The notes below the pieces were generated by a model. That model saw only the letters and a list, made by a program, of their open reading frames with translations, did no database searches and had not been told where the DNA came from. From a virus: 33,933 nucleotides of DNA. The stretch is taken from positions 1 to 33,933 of the IMG/VR virus record IMGVR_UViG_3300025769_000430. The stretch is one strand, 5' to 3'. The translations under genes and the position numbers were made by a program. Positions within the stretch are counted from its first letter, which is position 1; each line of letters opens with the position of its first letter. This document shows, in pieces, positions 4,243-14,231 of this stretch.

Positions 4243-4372
4243 TACTGATTTAGATCTACGCCGTCCACATCCACCTACGGCTGAAGCAGTTAAAAAAGCT
4301 AAGTTCGTAGACAAAACATACAATTGGAAAAATGCTGGTATTCGACCTGGAGACAAACGGACTCCTCAATGA
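4202..4372 (+). CDS. Small hypothetical protein (56 aa) bridging helicase and polymerase genes
   Basis: An open frame from ATG 4202 to TGA 4372 fills the gap of about 90 bases between the primase-helicase and the exonuclease ORF, overlapping both ends by about 40 bases. The product is basic and proline-containing, with motifs such as RRPHPPTAEAVKKAK and NWKNAGIRPGDKR. It has no hydrophobic segment and no domain I recognise. T7 also has small genes (4.3, 4.5, 4.7) at this spot, but I see no direct homology. There is no good ribosome site, so expression would depend on coupling to helicase translation. Existence is plausible because nothing else explains the gap. Confidence 0.5.
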   Translation: MKLNPISTRLPISNTDLDLRRPHPPTAEAVKKAKFVDKTYNWKNAGIRPGDKRTPQ

Positions 4373-4847
4373 TTTTACCCACATACATTGCCTTGCAATC
4401 TACGATTCTGAGACAGATGAGACGCTTGCATACAATGACAGCGGTACTCAAGCTCCCATCTCTGCAGGTGTTACAAGGTTGGAGGAAGCAGATCGAATAG
4501 CAGGACACAACATTATATCTTTTGATATACCCTGTATCAAAAAGATCTTTTCATTTTTTGAGCCACAAGGAGAGGTTATTGATACCCTTCTGTTGAGCCG
4601 GCTCTACCACCCTAATATGCTTGGCTTAGATAAAAAACATCAGTGGAAGCATATGCCACTGCAGCTGTATGGACGCCACTCGTTGGAATCATACGGTTAC
4701 AGGCTCGGTGAATACAAAGGAGGCTTTGCTAAGGACACTGATTGGCAAGAGTGGAGCCAAGAGATGGAAGACTATTGCGTACAGGATGTAAACGTGACAG
4801 TCAAACTATGTCAACATTTCCGCCCTTACCTGACTGGGTTGCGCTAG
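4332..4847 (+). CDS. DNA polymerase, separate 3'-5' exonuclease (proofreading) ORF
   Basis: A 171-residue ORF equal to the N-terminal proofreading domain of T7 gp5. Exo I is VFDLETNG with Asp5 and Glu7, as in T7; Exo II is HNIISFDIP with Asp65, the same number as in T7; Exo III is DYCVQDV with Tyr148 and Asp152 (T7 Tyr170 and Asp174). All catalytic residues are therefore intact. The frame stops at TAG 4845-4847, just after Exo III, and the polymerase part continues in the -1 frame. Either two polypeptides assemble into one enzyme, or the frames are joined by frameshifting, or an indel is present. I infer an active exonuclease from the intact motifs. Confidence 0.92.
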   Translation: MLVFDLETNGLLNDFTHIHCLAIYDSETDETLAYNDSGTQAPISAGVTRLEEADRIAGHNIISFDIPCIKKIFSFFEPQGEVIDTLLLSRLYHPNMLGLDKKHQWKHMPLQLYGRHSLESYGYRLGEYKGGFAKDTDWQEWSQEMEDYCVQDVNVTVKLCQHFRPYLTGLR

Positions 4848-6088
4848 AGCACCAAGTCGCACAATTAATGTCTAAACAGGAGGCACATGGATGGTATTTT
4901 GATGAACGCGCTGCATGGCAGCTTGCATCGGCTCTCCAAAAAGAGCTGGAAGAAACTAAAGAAGTACTACGCCAAAGGCACCCTTTCGTCCAAGGCGCGA
5001 CGTTCAATCCTAAAAGAAATAACAAAAGCCAAGGATACTTTCAAGGCTGCGAGTCCGTTAGACTCAAAGAACTAAACCCAACATCGCGTGACCATATATC
5101 ATGGATCCTTTCCACATTCTATGGCTGGACTCCGACCCAGATGACCAATACTGGGAAGCCGGTTATAGACGAGACCATATTGAAGGAGATTGCCTCAGAT
5201 GGGATCTCGATTGCCGGGGACTTCGCGAAGTGTCTGGATATTACGAAGAAATTGGGGATGATCTCGGAAGGCACGAACGCATGGCTCAAGCTTGTTACGA
5301 CTGCTAATCGAGTACATCACCATTGTTCAGTTGGGTGTGCGACTTTTAGAATGTCACACAAAAACCCCAACCTAGCTCAAGTACCTAGTGACCCTAGATT
5401 CCGACAATTATTTATACCAACTCCGGGTCAGATTATGGTCGGCGCTGATCTTGCTGGCATTGAGCTTCGCATGTTGGCACACTATCTCGCCCGTTACGAC
5501 GGTGGTAGATACGCCGACATCTTGCTTAACGGAGATATCCACCAAGTAAACGCCGATAAGATCGGTATATCACGTAAATTAGTCAAGACAGTTACTTATG
5601 CATTTTTGTACGGTGCTGGAGACATTAAGATCGGATTAAGCTATGACTCATCTCTCAGCTCATCTAGAGCTAAATCCAAAGGTAAGGAGATTCGCTCTGC
5701 ATATGTGGAAGCGATTCCTGGTCTTGATTCGCTCCTTACTGCTGTTAAAGCTGCGGGTGATCGAGGGTATGTTAAGGCGATTGACGGTCGCCGAATCCCG
5801 CTCGACTCACCACACAAATCCCTCAATTTCCTATTACAAGGATCAGCAGGGGTTTTGGCGAAAAGGTGGCTTCTACTAAACCAACAAACAGTAAACGAAA
5901 CTAAACTATGCTGCTCACAACTGGCGTTCGTACATGATGAACTACAGTTTGAGTGCGATCCTAAACATGCAAAAGATTTATCAACATCCCTGGTATACAG
6001 CGCTGCAGCGGCGGGAGAGTATTACAAACTCAGAATCCCAATCGCAGCAGAAGCCAAAATCGGGGACAACTGGGCCGAGGTGCACTGA
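4808..6088 (+). CDS. DNA polymerase, family A polymerase ORF (T7 gp5 C-terminal part)
   Basis: A polymerase domain of 426 residues from the ATG at 4808. Motif A is GADLAGIELRMLAH (T7 Asp475), motif B is RKLVKTVTYAFLYGAG (T7 Lys522, with a tyrosine at the T7 Tyr526 position) and motif C is FVHDELQFECD (T7 His653-Asp654). All three are intact. The segment WVALEHQVAQLMSKQEAHG matches the start of the T7 thumb region, which directly follows the exonuclease domain. The ORF overlaps the exonuclease ORF by 40 bases in the -1 frame. The ATG at 4808 has no clear ribosome site; an in-frame ATG at 4742 would add 22 residues that do not look polymerase-like. The stop overlaps the next start (TGATG). Confidence 0.94.
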   Translation: MSTFPPLPDWVALEHQVAQLMSKQEAHGWYFDERAAWQLASALQKELEETKEVLRQRHPFVQGATFNPKRNNKSQGYFQGCESVRLKELNPTSRDHISWILSTFYGWTPTQMTNTGKPVIDETILKEIASDGISIAGDFAKCLDITKKLGMISEGTNAWLKLVTTANRVHHHCSVGCATFRMSHKNPNLAQVPSDPRFRQLFIPTPGQIMVGADLAGIELRMLAHYLARYDGGRYADILLNGDIHQVNADKIGISRKLVKTVTYAFLYGAGDIKIGLSYDSSLSSSRAKSKGKEIRSAYVEAIPGLDSLLTAVKAAGDRGYVKAIDGRRIPLDSPHKSLNFLLQGSAGVLAKRWLLLNQQTVNETKLCCSQLAFVHDELQFECDPKHAKDLSTSLVYSAAAAGEYYKLRIPIAAEAKIGDNWAEVH

Positions 6089-6867
6089 TGAAACTGTACA
6101 TCGACGCTGATTATATTGTCTATAAAGGATGTGCTGCGGCAGAGACAGAGATTGACTGGGGATCCGATGTGATCATGGTTACATCTAAATTCTCTGATGC
6201 TTACAAAAACATCCTCAAAGATATTAATAGAATAGTTGGAGAGTTTGGTGGGTTCAGTGAGCCTGTGCTTTTCTTCTCTGACTCTGTAAACTTTCGTAAG
6301 GACATACTCCCATCATACAAGGGACACCGTAACCGAAAGAAACCATGTGGATACAGACGTGTGATTAACCAGCTCAAGACTGAGTATGAGGTTGTGATCA
6401 TGGATACCCTAGAGGCAGATGATGCCATGGGGATTTTTGCCACAAAATTTTCAGGCAATGTCATAGTATCACCAGACAAGGACATGCGACAGATCCCCGG
6501 ATTTTTGTATAACCTTGACGAACGTGTGACTGTGAATAAAGCCGATGGTGCTAAGTGGCACCTGATTCAAACACTTGCAGGTGACCAAACAGATGGTTAT
6601 GCAGGTGCACCTGGGGTAGGTGTGAAGCGAGCAGAAACACTGTTCGATAAGCACGGCTACAGCTGGGAAACCGTAGTCAATGCATTTAAGGAGAAGGGTC
6701 TCAGCGAAGAGATTGCTCTACAAAATGCAAGGCTAGCTAAGATCCTTACCGTAGATGACTATGACTTCAACACCAAACGACCAATACTATGGTCCCCCGC
6801 CTCCAGTTATAGAGTTGACGATGGAGCAGAGCTTCAAGATGAGAAGGATGAGAGACATGCTGCCTGA
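6088..6867 (+). CDS. 5'-3' exonuclease, FEN-like (T7 gp6)
   Basis: A 259-residue flap/5'-nuclease of the T7 gp6 type, which removes RNA primers and degrades host DNA to supply nucleotides. Visible motifs are the N-terminal DADYIVYKG, PSYKGHRNRKKP, the acidic cluster DTLEADDAMG, VSPDKDMRQIPG, and the H3TH-like GDQTDGYAGAPGVGVKRA. The catalytic-looking core ends near PILWSP. The last ~22 residues (DDGAELQDEKDERHAA and nearby) come from DNA that also encodes the next gene in another frame and may be a non-essential extension. The start is fixed by the TGATG overlap with the polymerase stop. Confidence 0.94.
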   Translation: MKLYIDADYIVYKGCAAAETEIDWGSDVIMVTSKFSDAYKNILKDINRIVGEFGGFSEPVLFFSDSVNFRKDILPSYKGHRNRKKPCGYRRVINQLKTEYEVVIMDTLEADDAMGIFATKFSGNVIVSPDKDMRQIPGFLYNLDERVTVNKADGAKWHLIQTLAGDQTDGYAGAPGVGVKRAETLFDKHGYSWETVVNAFKEKGLSEEIALQNARLAKILTVDDYDFNTKRPILWSPASSYRVDDGAELQDEKDERHAA

Positions 6868-6994
6868 GGCTAGCAAGGAGGATCTCATTACTATCTTGGA
6901 TGCTCTGCAGCATCAAAACTTTTGTTTATGTAACACCGTTAGTAACCTAGTAAAAAATTGGCCCGCCCGTCCTACTACACCCGAGGAACAATAG
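6755..6994 (+). CDS. nblA: NblA-like phycobilisome degradation adaptor
   Basis: NblA is a small cyanobacterial protein that binds phycobiliproteins and the ClpC chaperone and triggers phycobilisome proteolysis. The segment IELTMEQSFKMRR, then ASKEDL, then NLVKNW aligns without gaps to my recollection of the cyanobacterial NblA pattern (xxLSxEQQFxL...SREDLxxLxxE...LxK), and the preceding PPPP also fits. The conserved IELT lies before the internal ATG at 6821, so translation should begin upstream, at ATG 6755 or 6761 (79 or 77 residues). The gene overprints the last 113 bases of the exonuclease gene. It has no clear ribosome site. The C-terminus carries an L-V-K triplet where NblA has the Leu-x-Lys implicated in phycobiliprotein binding. 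Function is inferred from the family. Confidence 0.75.
   Translation: MTMTSTPNDQYYGPPPPVIELTMEQSFKMRRMRDMLPEASKEDLITILDALQHQNFCLCNTVSNLVKNWPARPTTPEEQ
6952..6958 (+). promoter_or_regulatory. Candidate -1 slippery heptamer A_AAA_AAT in nblA
   Basis: In the nblA frame the codons read GTA AAA AAT TGG, giving X_XXY_YYZ with A_AAA_AAT. Slipping back one base continues as AAA AAA TTG GCC, which is exactly the DUF3310 frame. A six-base hairpin, GAAGTC/GACTTC at 6994-7008, lies about 36 bases downstream, farther than usual for a stimulator. Function is untested. Confidence 0.35.
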
Positions 6995-7233
6995 AAGTCT
7001 GGGACTTCATCCGTGATCAAGAGCTCAACTACTTTCTCGGGAACGCAATTAAATACATCTGCCGTGCTGGTTTTAAAGACAGCCGTGTAGAAGATCTAAA
7101 AAAAGCTATCACCTACCTAGAGAAAGAATTAGAAAATGTCATTGCTATCGAACCAAGCCATCGAATTCCGCCAAGCGTACAATATACGGAACGATTTGAG
7201 TTCCCGCTCGATGCAGAAGAATTTGATCGTTGA
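6958..7233 (+). CDS. DUF3310 protein (T7 gp1.7 nucleotide kinase-like)
   Basis: A 91-residue protein with the DUF3310 signature: YYTRGTIEVWDFI, then NYFLGNAIKYICRAG, then VEDLKKAITYLEKEL. In T7 the related gp1.7 is a nucleotide kinase active on dGMP and dTMP, so a role in deoxynucleotide supply fits the neighbouring MazG-like and ribonucleotide reductase genes. The only start before the domain is a TTG at 6958 without a ribosome site; the frame opens at 6946 after a TAA. It overlaps the nblA end by 37 bases. An alternative is expression as a -1 frameshift fusion from nblA. The C-terminus overlaps the next gene by about 100 bases. Confidence 0.83.
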   Translation: MARPSYYTRGTIEVWDFIRDQELNYFLGNAIKYICRAGFKDSRVEDLKKAITYLEKELENVIAIEPSHRIPPSVQYTERFEFPLDAEEFDR

Positions 7234-7504
7234 GGAATTCAAGGAGTTTCTTCAGGCTGACGCAGATATGGTGCTCATGCACCCACAAGATCGGGAAGCT
7301 TGTTTGAAAGAGCTAGCTGATCTAGTTTATGTGTGTGCTCAGTACGCTGAGAACATGGATTGGGACATTGAGCAAGCATTGCGCCGTGTCCATCAATCAA
7401 ATATGTCCAAGCTTGGTGAAGACGGTAAACCGATCTACCGCGAGGACGGAAAAGTCCTCAAAGGACCTAACTATCAACCACCTGATTTGTCAGATCTTGT
7501 TTAA
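7136..7504 (+). CDS. MazG-like nucleotide pyrophosphohydrolase
   Basis: A 122-residue all-alpha NTP pyrophosphohydrolase of the MazG/PRA-PH type. The metal-binding pattern is visible as VEEFKEF (Glu33, Glu34, Glu37) followed by LKELADLVYV (Glu59, Asp62). The C-terminus ALRRVHQSNMSKLGEDGKP is typical of the phosphoribosyl-ATP pyrophosphohydrolase-like subgroup in phages. Such enzymes hydrolyse nucleoside triphosphates to monophosphates; in cyanophages they are usually linked to nucleotide pools or alarmone control, but the substrate here is unknown. The gene sits between DUF3310 and ribonucleotide reductase and ends in a TAATG overlap with the latter. Confidence 0.87.
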   Translation: MSLLSNQAIEFRQAYNIRNDLSSRSMQKNLIVEEFKEFLQADADMVLMHPQDREACLKELADLVYVCAQYAENMDWDIEQALRRVHQSNMSKLGEDGKPIYREDGKVLKGPNYQPPDLSDLV

Positions 7505-8874
7505 TGTCTAAACTTATTTCCCGTACTGGTCGCGTCCAAGCATGGATGGATGACCCAACATCACGGCTGCCAGTGTCGTGCACAATCTTCAACGTTATGG
7601 ACTCTTGCGAGGGTCCAGATGGTATTGAAGCTAGCTGGCGTTTTGCATCACACGCTCTACGCAATGGAGCTGGTGTTGCTATTCACCTGTCCGATCTTCG
7701 ACCGAAAGGAACTGAAAATGGAAAGGGACTTGTCGCTAGCGGCCCGGTTTCATTTGGCCAAATCTATTCGACCCTTAACTCTGTACTCCGACGTGGTGGA
7801 GTCTATAAGAACGGCGCTGTGGTGTTGCATATCGACCTGTGCCATCCTGATGCTCTTGAATTTATACAAGCACCACGTCATGAGCTCCCTTGGGCTAAGC
7901 GATGCATCAACATTACAGATGAATGGTGGGAGGCGTGCACTTTTAAGGAGGAACTACTCAATGGTATTAAGTCCGGTGACATTTGGCTCAACAAAGTAAA
8001 GTATGACAAACAAGGCAACCGTATTCGAGGCAACGTTTGTCTCGAAGTGTACCTGCCTAGCAGAGGAACCTGTCTCCTACAGCATGTTAATCTTGGAGCC
8101 TGTGAGTTCGATGACATTCCAAGAGCTTTCGTCGAAGGTATGTCTGAACTGTGTGCACTGCATGCAACCACTGGAGTTGGTGAGAGTGGTGAATACCTCC
8201 CACCCGAGACGGATCGACAAGTCGGCCTTGGAATGCTCGGACTTGCAAATCTCCTTCGACGTGTAGGTGTAACTTATGAACAATTTGGACGTGCACTTGA
8301 CCAATACAACAATGGCGAAATCGTACAAACACCAGCATTTGAATTGGTATCACAATTCGCAAGTGGAATCGACTCGGCAGCAAGCATTGCACGTAGTTAC
8401 TCGATGGAACGAGCTTTCGCAATCGCTCCTACTGCTAGCTGTAGCTACCGCAGTCAAGATGTAGATGGATATACTTGTACACCGGAGATTGCACCGCCGA
8501 TCTCCCGTCACATTGACCGTGACTCTGGCACCTTTGGTGTGCAGAGCTATGATTATGGTGATGTAGAAATTGCATCTGAAGTTGGCTGGGACGCATACAA
8601 GCGTGTCGCTGATGGACTCATGACGATGCTAAATAACACTGGGCTTCTTCACGGGTATAGCTTCAATAGCTGGAGTGATGTTGTTACTTATGACAACGCC
8701 TTTATCGAAGAGTGGCTAAAGAGTCCCCAGACTTCCTTGTATTATTCGCTTCAAGTAATGGGCGATACACAAGATAAATCTGATGCATATGCCGCTCTCG
8801 ACTCAAAGGAAGTAGACGACTATCTTGCAGATTTACTAAATGAAAAAGAACCTACCTGTGACTGTCAAGAATGA
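7504..8874 (+). CDS. nrdA: Ribonucleotide reductase alpha subunit, compact class I (cyanopodovirus type)
   Basis: Catalytic subunit reducing ribonucleotides to deoxyribonucleotides. At 456 residues it lacks the N-terminal ATP-cone of cellular NrdA (~760 residues). Active-site residues are present: Cys26 in PVSCTIFN, Asn177-x-Cys179-x-Glu181 in GNVCLEV (the E. coli Asn437/Cys439/Glu441 set), Cys200 in VNLGAC, and the phosphate loop APTASCSY. A C-terminal CDC pair (Cys452, Cys454) would re-reduce the active site. SLYYS with Tyr413-Tyr414 matches the Tyr730-Tyr731 radical pathway of class I enzymes. With the beta-like gene next door, this argues for class I rather than B12-dependent class II, the label that related cyanophage enzymes have often carried. 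The start is fixed by the TAATG overlap. Confidence 0.9.
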   Translation: MSKLISRTGRVQAWMDDPTSRLPVSCTIFNVMDSCEGPDGIEASWRFASHALRNGAGVAIHLSDLRPKGTENGKGLVASGPVSFGQIYSTLNSVLRRGGVYKNGAVVLHIDLCHPDALEFIQAPRHELPWAKRCINITDEWWEACTFKEELLNGIKSGDIWLNKVKYDKQGNRIRGNVCLEVYLPSRGTCLLQHVNLGACEFDDIPRAFVEGMSELCALHATTGVGESGEYLPPETDRQVGLGMLGLANLLRRVGVTYEQFGRALDQYNNGEIVQTPAFELVSQFASGIDSAASIARSYSMERAFAIAPTASCSYRSQDVDGYTCTPEIAPPISRHIDRDSGTFGVQSYDYGDVEIASEVGWDAYKRVADGLMTMLNNTGLLHGYSFNSWSDVVTYDNAFIEEWLKSPQTSLYYSLQVMGDTQDKSDAYAALDSKEVDDYLADLLNEKEPTCDCQE

Positions 8875-11617: not shown

Positions 11618-12351
11618 TGGCAGAAATTTTTACATCAGACAACAGTGTTAGTCAAGAGGTTATGGAATCTCATAACACTGAGATCGCTGATTCTCTCCGC
11701 GTTGGCGAAGAGATGATGGAAGCTCATGAGCAACGTCTGGCTGGTAAGTATAAAAATACTGAAGAGCTAGAAGCTGCATACCTTGAGCTGCAAAAGAAAC
11801 TCGGGAGTCAAGAAGAAAATGTGCAAACAGAGTCTGAAGAAACTCCTGAAGTCGATTGGCTGGCAGAAGCCCAGCGAGCAATCACAGAAAGTGGAGAACT
11901 CTCAGAAGAACTAGCTCAACAGATCTCCGACATGAATGGCATGGATGTGTTCAATGCCATGAAAGAAGGTAACTTTACTGACTCACGTGATCTGAGTGAC
12001 GCTGAAATGAACGCTGTCTACCAAGCTGTTGGTGGTCAGGATCAGTACGGCAACCTCATTGGTTGGGCTCAAGAGAATTTCACTGATGCTGAAATTGAAG
12101 CCTATGATCAAGTGATTGACTCTGGTAACATTTCACAAATCAATCTTGCATTGCAAGCACTTTACTATCGATACACAGACGCTATGGGACAGGACGGCAA
12201 CCTCTTGCAAGGTAAGCCTGCTGCTGCTGAAACAGTTTTCCGCAGTCAAGCAGAGCTTATCCAAGCAATGAATGATCCACGGTATGACAATGATCCTGCA
12301 TACCGGCAAGATGTTATTAACAAACTAGATCGCTCCGAAATCAACTTCTAA
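11617..12351 (+). CDS. Capsid assembly (scaffolding) protein, T7 gp9-like
   Basis: A 244-residue acidic, mostly helical protein between portal and capsid genes, where T7 has scaffold gene 9 (307 residues). Scaffold proteins guide procapsid assembly and leave before maturation. Features supporting this are the high Glu content, a long probable coiled segment around LAGKYKNTEELEAAYLELQK, and a C-terminus with RQDVINKLDRSEINF. The motif KYKNTEELEAAY is common in T7-like phage scaffolds. It shares TAATG junctions with portal and with hli. Confidence 0.88.
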   Translation: MAEIFTSDNSVSQEVMESHNTEIADSLRVGEEMMEAHEQRLAGKYKNTEELEAAYLELQKKLGSQEENVQTESEETPEVDWLAEAQRAITESGELSEELAQQISDMNGMDVFNAMKEGNFTDSRDLSDAEMNAVYQAVGGQDQYGNLIGWAQENFTDAEIEAYDQVIDSGNISQINLALQALYYRYTDAMGQDGNLLQGKPAAAETVFRSQAELIQAMNDPRYDNDPAYRQDVINKLDRSEINF

Positions 12352-12521
12352 TGAACGACACCCAAATCTGGCCCACTGAACCACGTATGTACATCGACGA
12401 AAACTCCATCCCTCATAACGAACGCGCCGAGCGTCTCAATGGCCGACTGGCTATGCTCGGTGTGATTGCTGCGATTGGATCGTATGCAGTTACTGGTCAA
12501 CTTATCCCTGGAGTATGGTAA
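12351..12521 (+). CDS. hli: High-light-inducible protein (Hli)
   Basis: A 56-residue single-helix protein of the chlorophyll a/b-binding superfamily. The signature ERAERLNGRLAMLGVIAAIG contains the ExxNGRxAMxG motif, followed by a membrane helix ending at TGQLIPGVW. Hli proteins bind chlorophyll and carotenoid in the thylakoid membrane and protect photosystems under excess light; cyanophage copies are thought to keep photosynthesis running during infection. The gene starts in a TAATG overlap with the scaffold stop and ends in another. There is no clear ribosome site, so translation is probably coupled to the scaffold. Confidence 0.95.
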   Translation: MNDTQIWPTEPRMYIDENSIPHNERAERLNGRLAMLGVIAAIGSYAVTGQLIPGVW

Positions 12522-13151: not shown

Positions 13152-14231
13152 ATGGCAGCTACTATCGCACTACAACGGCCCAAGTCTATTTGGGACCGCT
13201 ATTGTGAGTGGGTTAGCAGCACTGAGAACCGGCTTTATGTAGGACACTTCGGTGTCCTCATGATTCCTTGTCTACTGGCAGCGACCACTTGCTTTATTGT
13301 TGCATTCATTGCAGCACCTCCCGTTGACATCGACGGCATCCGTGAACCCGTTGCAGGGTCTCTACTCTATGGAAACAACATCATCTCAGGAGCAGTCGTA
13401 CCCAGCTCCAACGCAATCGGACTACATCTCTACTCCATCTGGGAAGCAGCCAGCCTCGACGAATGGCTCTACAATGGAGGACCCTATCAGCTCGTCGTAT
13501 TCCACTTTCTCATTGGTGTCTTCGCTTACATGGGACGCGAATGGGAACTTAGTTATCGACTAGGGATGAGGCCCTGGATCTTTGTTGCTTACTCTGCTCC
13601 GGTCGCTGCTGCTACTGCAGTCTTCCTCGTCTACCCTTTCGGTCAGGGTTCATTTAGTGATGGTATGCCTCTGGGTATCAGTGGCACGTTCAACTACATG
13701 CTCGTCTTTCAAGCTGAACACAATATCCTCATGCACCCCTTCCATATGTTGGGTGTTGCTGGAGTGTTTGGTGGGTCGCTGTTCTCTGCAATGCACGGTT
13801 CGCTTGTTACGTCCTCACTGGTTCGAGAGACGACTGAAAACGTAAGCCAAAACCAAGGATATAAATTTGGACAAGAAGAAGAAACGTACAACATCGTTGC
13901 AGCGCACGGCTATTTTGGTCGGCTTATTTTCCAGTATGCTAGTTTTAACAACAGTAGGAGTCTCCACTTCTTTCTGGCCGCTTGGCCTGTTGTTGGCATT
14001 TGGTTTACCGCTCTTGGTGTCTCTACGATGGCGTTCAACCTGAACGGCTTTAACTTTAATCAATCGATCCAAGCGTCTGATGGTAGAGTCATCAACACTT
14101 GGGCTGACATTCTAAACCGAGCTGGTCTCGGTATGGAAGTCATGCACGAGCGTAATGCTCACAATTTCCCCCTCGACCTGGCTAGTGTAGAGAGTGCACC
14201 TGTTGCTCTCACTGCTCCGGCGGTCGGCTAA
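13152..14231 (+). CDS. psbA: Photosystem II D1 reaction-centre protein
   Basis: A complete 359-residue D1 protein with five membrane helices. Functional residues fall at standard numbers: Tyr161 (TyrZ), Asp170, His190, His198, His215, His272, Ser264, His332, Glu333, His337, Asp342 and Ala344. A 15-residue extension after Ala344 should be removed by the host CtpA protease. Residue 130 is Glu (MGREWE), the form associated with high-light cyanobacterial D1. In infected cells phage D1 replaces damaged host D1 and keeps electron flow going. There is no Shine-Dalgarno sequence; the start lies in an AT-rich TAATTAAATGG context. The sequence looks intact and of cyanobacterial origin. Confidence 0.99.

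Follow-up and report, generated by a model that had tools for sequence, protein, structure and literature searches.

NblA joins phycobiliproteins, which it contacts through a C-terminal motif, to ClpC, which it contacts through an N-terminal motif (PMC4103541, PMC7966870, PMC7760959), and its known layout is a helix-loop-helix (PMC4103541). Phage NblAs expressed in cyanobacteria are reported to cause phycobilin loss (PMC9602691), and several NblAs of freshwater cyanophages and marine myoviruses have been reported to be active or expressed (PMC4103541, PMC9602691). In the reported NblA tree, the copies of cyanopodoviruses group in a single cluster that is separate from the freshwater copies, and both the freshwater-phage and the marine-myovirus NblAs fall in clusters other than that of the cyanopodovirus copies (PMC9602691). 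According to a paper from 2022, nblA had been predicted in 14 cyanopodovirus strains and in S-TIM5 by Nadel et al. 2019 (PMC9602691), and a review from 2026 refers to Nadel et al. 2025 (Nature) for many oceanic cyanophages that degrade the antennae of their hosts with their own NblA (PMC12892361).

The presence of nblA in T7-like cyanophages has therefore already been reported, and the copy described here, located in a 33,933-base contig of an uncultured oceanic cyanophage that was analysed whole (the window), is an ordinary further example. The 2025 work of Nadel et al. reportedly used a phage with a disrupted nblA, and the gene is said to occur in roughly one third of T7-like cyanophages from the ocean.

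Gene context and comparison with known NblAs

The features of the window that are relevant to the nblA locus are the following.

6088..6867, + strand: T7-like gp6 exonuclease (exo), upstream neighbour (5_3_exonuc_N, E 1.5e-9; phrog_107 exonuclease, E 6e-66)
6755..6994, + strand: nblA-like gene, 79 aa, ATG to TAG (Pfam PF04485, phrog_27006, dN/dS)
6755..6867, + strand: overlap of the nblA 5' part with the exonuclease gene 3' end, 113 nt, different frame (ORF coordinates)
6812..6958, + strand: stretch that matches the NblA domain (ELTMEQSFKMRR...NLVK), predicted to form two helices (Pfam profile 1-49/50; AlphaFold2)
6958..7233, + strand: small downstream gene of the DUF3310 or 'nucleotide kinase'-like kind, starting with TTG (PF11753, E 3.4e-15)
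7136..7504, + strand: MazG-like nucleotide pyrophosphohydrolase (PF01503, E 2.3e-7; phrog_671, E 5e-36)
7504-8874: ribonucleotide reductase (RNR), after the MazG-like gene
12351..12521, + strand: hli, high-light-inducible protein (phrog_178, E 1.8e-23)
13152..14231, + strand: psbA, photosystem II D1 protein, 359 aa (translation)

The nblA-like gene, which could also start at its second ATG (6761), thus lies between the exonuclease gene upstream and the DUF3310, MazG-like and RNR genes downstream, in line with the T7-like replication and nucleotide block in which the preliminary description had placed it. The coexistence of nblA with psbA and hli, claimed in the same description, also holds, with hli and psbA located 5-6 kb downstream on the same contig. 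The window has the T7-like gene order of clade B cyanophages, with a split DNA polymerase, RNR, psbA and hli, of which psbA and hli together are a described mark of clade B (PMC9381782), and the ORF order parallels that of S-TIP37 and P-SSP7.

Two details of neighbouring genes were observed. The split DNA polymerase consists of an exonuclease ORF (4332-4847) and a polymerase ORF (4742-6088), and is likewise annotated in S-TIP37 and P-SSP7. The DUF3310 gene has no ATG at its start; in its frame, which is open from 6946, the TTG at 6958 is the earliest of the usual start codons.

The window copy is 59-67% identical, over most of the protein, to the NblAs of clade B cyanopodoviruses (S-TIP37, S-RIP2/KBS-P-1A, S-SBP1 and S-SRP01), with which it shares the position after exo and the helix-loop-helix family. 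In addition, psbA and hli are present in the genomes of S-TIP37 and S-SBP1, as in the window. Sequence divergence is the sole difference from these copies, the window copy coming from an uncultured contig. The NblAs of freshwater cyanophages (Ma-LMM01, MaMV-DC, PaV-LD) and of marine myoviruses (S-TIM5, S-SCSM1) are phage-borne as well, but reside in myo- or siphovirus backgrounds, unlike the window copy. With cyanobacterial NblA (PF04485; PDB 1ojh, 3cs5, 2q8v, 2qdo), the window copy shares a 49-column gap-free alignment, the E-L-[ST]-x-E-Q-x-F motif, two helices and the terminal L-[VL]-K, but it is only about 24% identical, carries a proline-rich extension (PPPPV) at its N-terminus and has a longer tail at its C-terminus, so that the product comprises 79 aa with extensions, compared with about 60 residues for a typical small helix-loop-helix NblA.

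The AlphaFold2 monomer model of the product contains two confident helices, residues 23-34 and 41-68, with a pLDDT of 94-96 over residues 21-60, which supports the two-helix architecture anticipated in the preliminary description.

Distribution among phages and metagenomes

An orthologue is found by tblastn in 37 public phage records, every one a T7-like cyanophage, and on more than 190 metagenomic contigs overall; close relatives occur on 75 IMG/VR contigs. The earlier framing of phage nblA as rare, known mainly from freshwater with at least one report from a marine cyanopodovirus, is outdated in view of these counts, and is also contradicted by the 14 cyanopodovirus strains for which the 2022 paper reports an nblA prediction (PMC9602691). 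In the 37 public records and in all 62 metagenomic relatives that could be tested, the gene occupies the same place, where its start overlaps the exonuclease 3' end and the DUF3310, MazG and ribonucleotide reductase genes follow. Specifically, exo ends less than 200 nt from where nblA begins in every metagenomic relative whose upstream DNA is long enough (62/62), and RNR lies less than 1.5 kb downstream of nblA in all testable relatives (61/61).

psbA is present in 10 of the 13 viral records checked whole, and the window psbA is 86-97% identical to the psbA of 10/13 viral contigs bearing nblA relatives. psbA and hli occur together in S-TIP37, S-SBP1, DSL-LC07, S-CBP1/3/4, S-B28 and P-SSP2/3/7. 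T7-like cyanophages of clade B usually have psbA, hli and nblA together, in agreement with the use of psbA and hli as a clade B mark (PMC9381782). The nblA locus has no gene annotation in S-TIP37 and S-SBP1, and its product is a 'hypothetical' or 'uncharacterized' protein in other records. No NblA-like ORF was found near exo in the clade A phages Syn5, S-TIP28 and S-CBP42 or in the Tangaroaviruses 9515-10a and NATL2A-133.

When bacterial genomes were searched for the phage-type gene, the matches were confined to MAG contigs with wrong labels and to distant nblA genes of cyanobacteria, so that no recent donor came to light. Two contigs of MAG bacterium TMED88 (L095, L096) and one of a Gammaproteobacteria MAG (L097) carry a phage-type nblA with 53-62% identity, and are probably cyanophage contigs misbinned into bacterial MAGs. 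A contig of a Planctomycetota MAG (L099:3923-4216) is a T7-like podophage with the order exo, NblA-like gene, DUF3310, MazG and RNR; its DNA polymerase is unsplit, and its NblA-like protein is very divergent.

Many relatives (L013, L022, L023, L030, L083-L086 and others) carry a conserved C-terminal tail resembling KFGTSSETKD, which the window copy, at 79 aa, does not have. This tail seems to result from out-of-frame reading across the conserved WDFIxDQ of the next gene, and its conservation therefore probably stems from that gene rather than from NblA.

Proposed function and orthologues in Prochlorococcus phages

We consider it highly likely, on the strength of sequence, that the window gene encodes an NblA proteolysis adaptor that, during infection, links the host's phycobiliproteins to the ClpC protease. 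Reasoning from known NblA biology, from which dimerisation, the binding partners, phycobilisome loss and the benefit to the phage are all drawn, the phage protein would fold as a helix-loop-helix and presumably dimerise, and would use its C-terminal helix to bind phycobiliproteins and its N-terminal motif to bind the ClpC chaperone of the host. Host phycobilisomes would in this way be handed to the Clp protease while the phage infects, and their breakdown would release free amino acids and reduce light harvesting, while the phage D1 (psbA) and Hli proteins would protect photosystem II.

A phycobilisome-bearing host is likely for the window phage, because the closest isolates, S-RIP2, KBS-P-1A, S-TIP37 and S-SBP1, infect Synechococcus, in which phycobilisomes are present, and because the window GC content of 44% is inside the range of the sampled Synechococcus clade B phages (43-51%) and above that of the sampled Prochlorococcus phages (39-42%).

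Prochlorococcus possesses neither phycobilisomes nor nblA (PMC7439483). Orthologues of the P-SSP7 and NATL1A-7 types, the hosts of which are assigned from the isolates, were found on 121 contigs (loci L144-L264). Their median scores against the cyanobacterial NblA profile are 8.0 bits (P-SSP7 type) and 5.5 bits (NATL1A-7 type), versus 18.6 bits for window-like copies, and the tested isolate copies of the two types gave no Pfam match. Both types mostly lack the Lys of LVK, having E, D, A, S or N instead. Loss of this Lys was rejected as a rule for phycobilisome-less hosts, since T or S stands there in S-TIP37, S-CBP1 and S-CBP4, which are Synechococcus phages. Further orthologues of the Prochlorococcus-phage type were seen at L094:10007-10318 and L090:10001-10282.

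The orthologues of both types are under strong purifying selection, with a pN/pS of about 0.12 (P-SSP7 type) and 0.25 (NATL1A-7 type), which argues that the family remains useful in the absence of phycobilisomes. This selection also favours the reading that the window protein, a ClpC adaptor descended from NblA, acts mainly on targets outside the phycobilisome, for instance on other host proteins, with phycobilisome loss as a secondary effect; but the window lineage retains the NblA sequence features and groups with Synechococcus phages, whose hosts have phycobilisomes, and reported phage NblAs trigger phycobilisome loss (PMC9602691), so that we judge such a shift of target improbable for the window copy. 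For the T7-like phage NblA family as a whole, a broader ClpC adaptor role that extends beyond phycobilisome degradation is a tentative proposal, unlikely in our estimate: because the Prochlorococcus-phage orthologues are under purifying selection yet drift from the NblA profile, phage NblA may feed other host proteins to Clp. For the window gene, phycobilisome degradation is the preferred function.

Assignment to the NblA family

The best family of the 79-aa product is Pfam NblA (PF04485; 29.1 bits, E 1.4e-6), above the curated gathering cut-off of 25 bits, with residues 20-68 aligned to profile positions 1-49 of 50 without gaps; both the homology and the gap-free alignment to NblA that had been proposed from inspection are thereby borne out. 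This is the single NblA match in the whole contig, and the product also matches phrog_27006 (E 7e-18). Furthermore, a cyanobacterial NblA profile built from 22 sequences singles out 6755-6994 from all 540 frames of 30 codons or more in the window (E 7e-5; runner-up E 1.2).

The relationship is seen from both sides. A profile of 40 metagenomic relatives places all four NblA PDB entries (3cs5, 1ojh, 2q8v, 2qdo) at the top of 177,635 PDB sequences (best E 6e-5), while the phage HMM recovers the cyanobacterial NblA ORFs, most of them at E-values from 1e-9 to about 0.005 and five, more weakly, at 0.05-0.08. hhalign of the phage family against cyanobacterial NblA gives 95.7% probability over 49 gap-free columns with 24% identity, and pairs the terminal Lys of the phage family with the Lys of LLKHQ. 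NblA is the commonest Pfam match in all 40 of the relatives (best E 8e-11), across which E24, Q25, D43, L65 and W69 are invariant. In the alignment, ELTMEQ.F is matched to ELSLEQQF at the N-terminus and NLVK to (D/E)xLK at the C-terminus, indicating that the predicted ClpC-side motif (ELTMEQSF) and the predicted phycobiliprotein-side motif (NLVK) are both present.

A small phage protein unrelated to NblA could resemble it by chance or composition, being short and helical; the single-sequence PDB match is weak (E 0.023), and Foldseek of the model against the PDB returned no NblA entry at E<=10, a 45-residue two-helix hairpin giving little 3Di signal. Such a coincidence is very improbable, however, given that the profiles agree in both directions, that PF04485 is reached by the product and NblA by 40/40 relatives, and that the real sequence, at 18.3 bits against the cyanobacterial NblA profile, outscored all 20,000 shuffles of itself (best 14.4 bits), and we dropped it. 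The NCBIfam equivalog NF045916 (NblA) was not reached (15.7 bits versus a cut-off of 100), a result that concerns orthology to this narrower group and not PF04485 membership. Judged by its sequence, 6755-6994 very probably encodes NblA.

Coding status of the ORF

In addition to the 113-nt overlap with exo, the 3' end of nblA overlaps the start of the DUF3310 gene by 37 nt in a different frame, which leaves an overlap-free stretch of 90 nt. Overlap on both sides and the missing annotation in many records would suit a spurious ORF kept open merely by its neighbours, but this explanation, the least credible of all, was dropped since the overlap-free stretch has a median pS of 0.81 and pN of 0.18 (versus 91 relatives) and a dN/dS that averages about 0.13 (23 comparisons with closer relatives, below saturation). 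By this substitution pattern, the 6755-6994 frame is a genuine gene under strong purifying selection. The family match, the shuffle test and the dN/dS together argue that the gene is real and its match to NblA not due to chance.

Implications

Our analysis adds a well-supported nblA from a lineage that stands near cultured phages of Synechococcus. Hidden in the gap between the exonuclease and nucleotide-kinase genes and mostly unannotated, nblA belongs to the standard gene set of many T7-like cyanophages of clade B, and its correct annotation matters for estimates.
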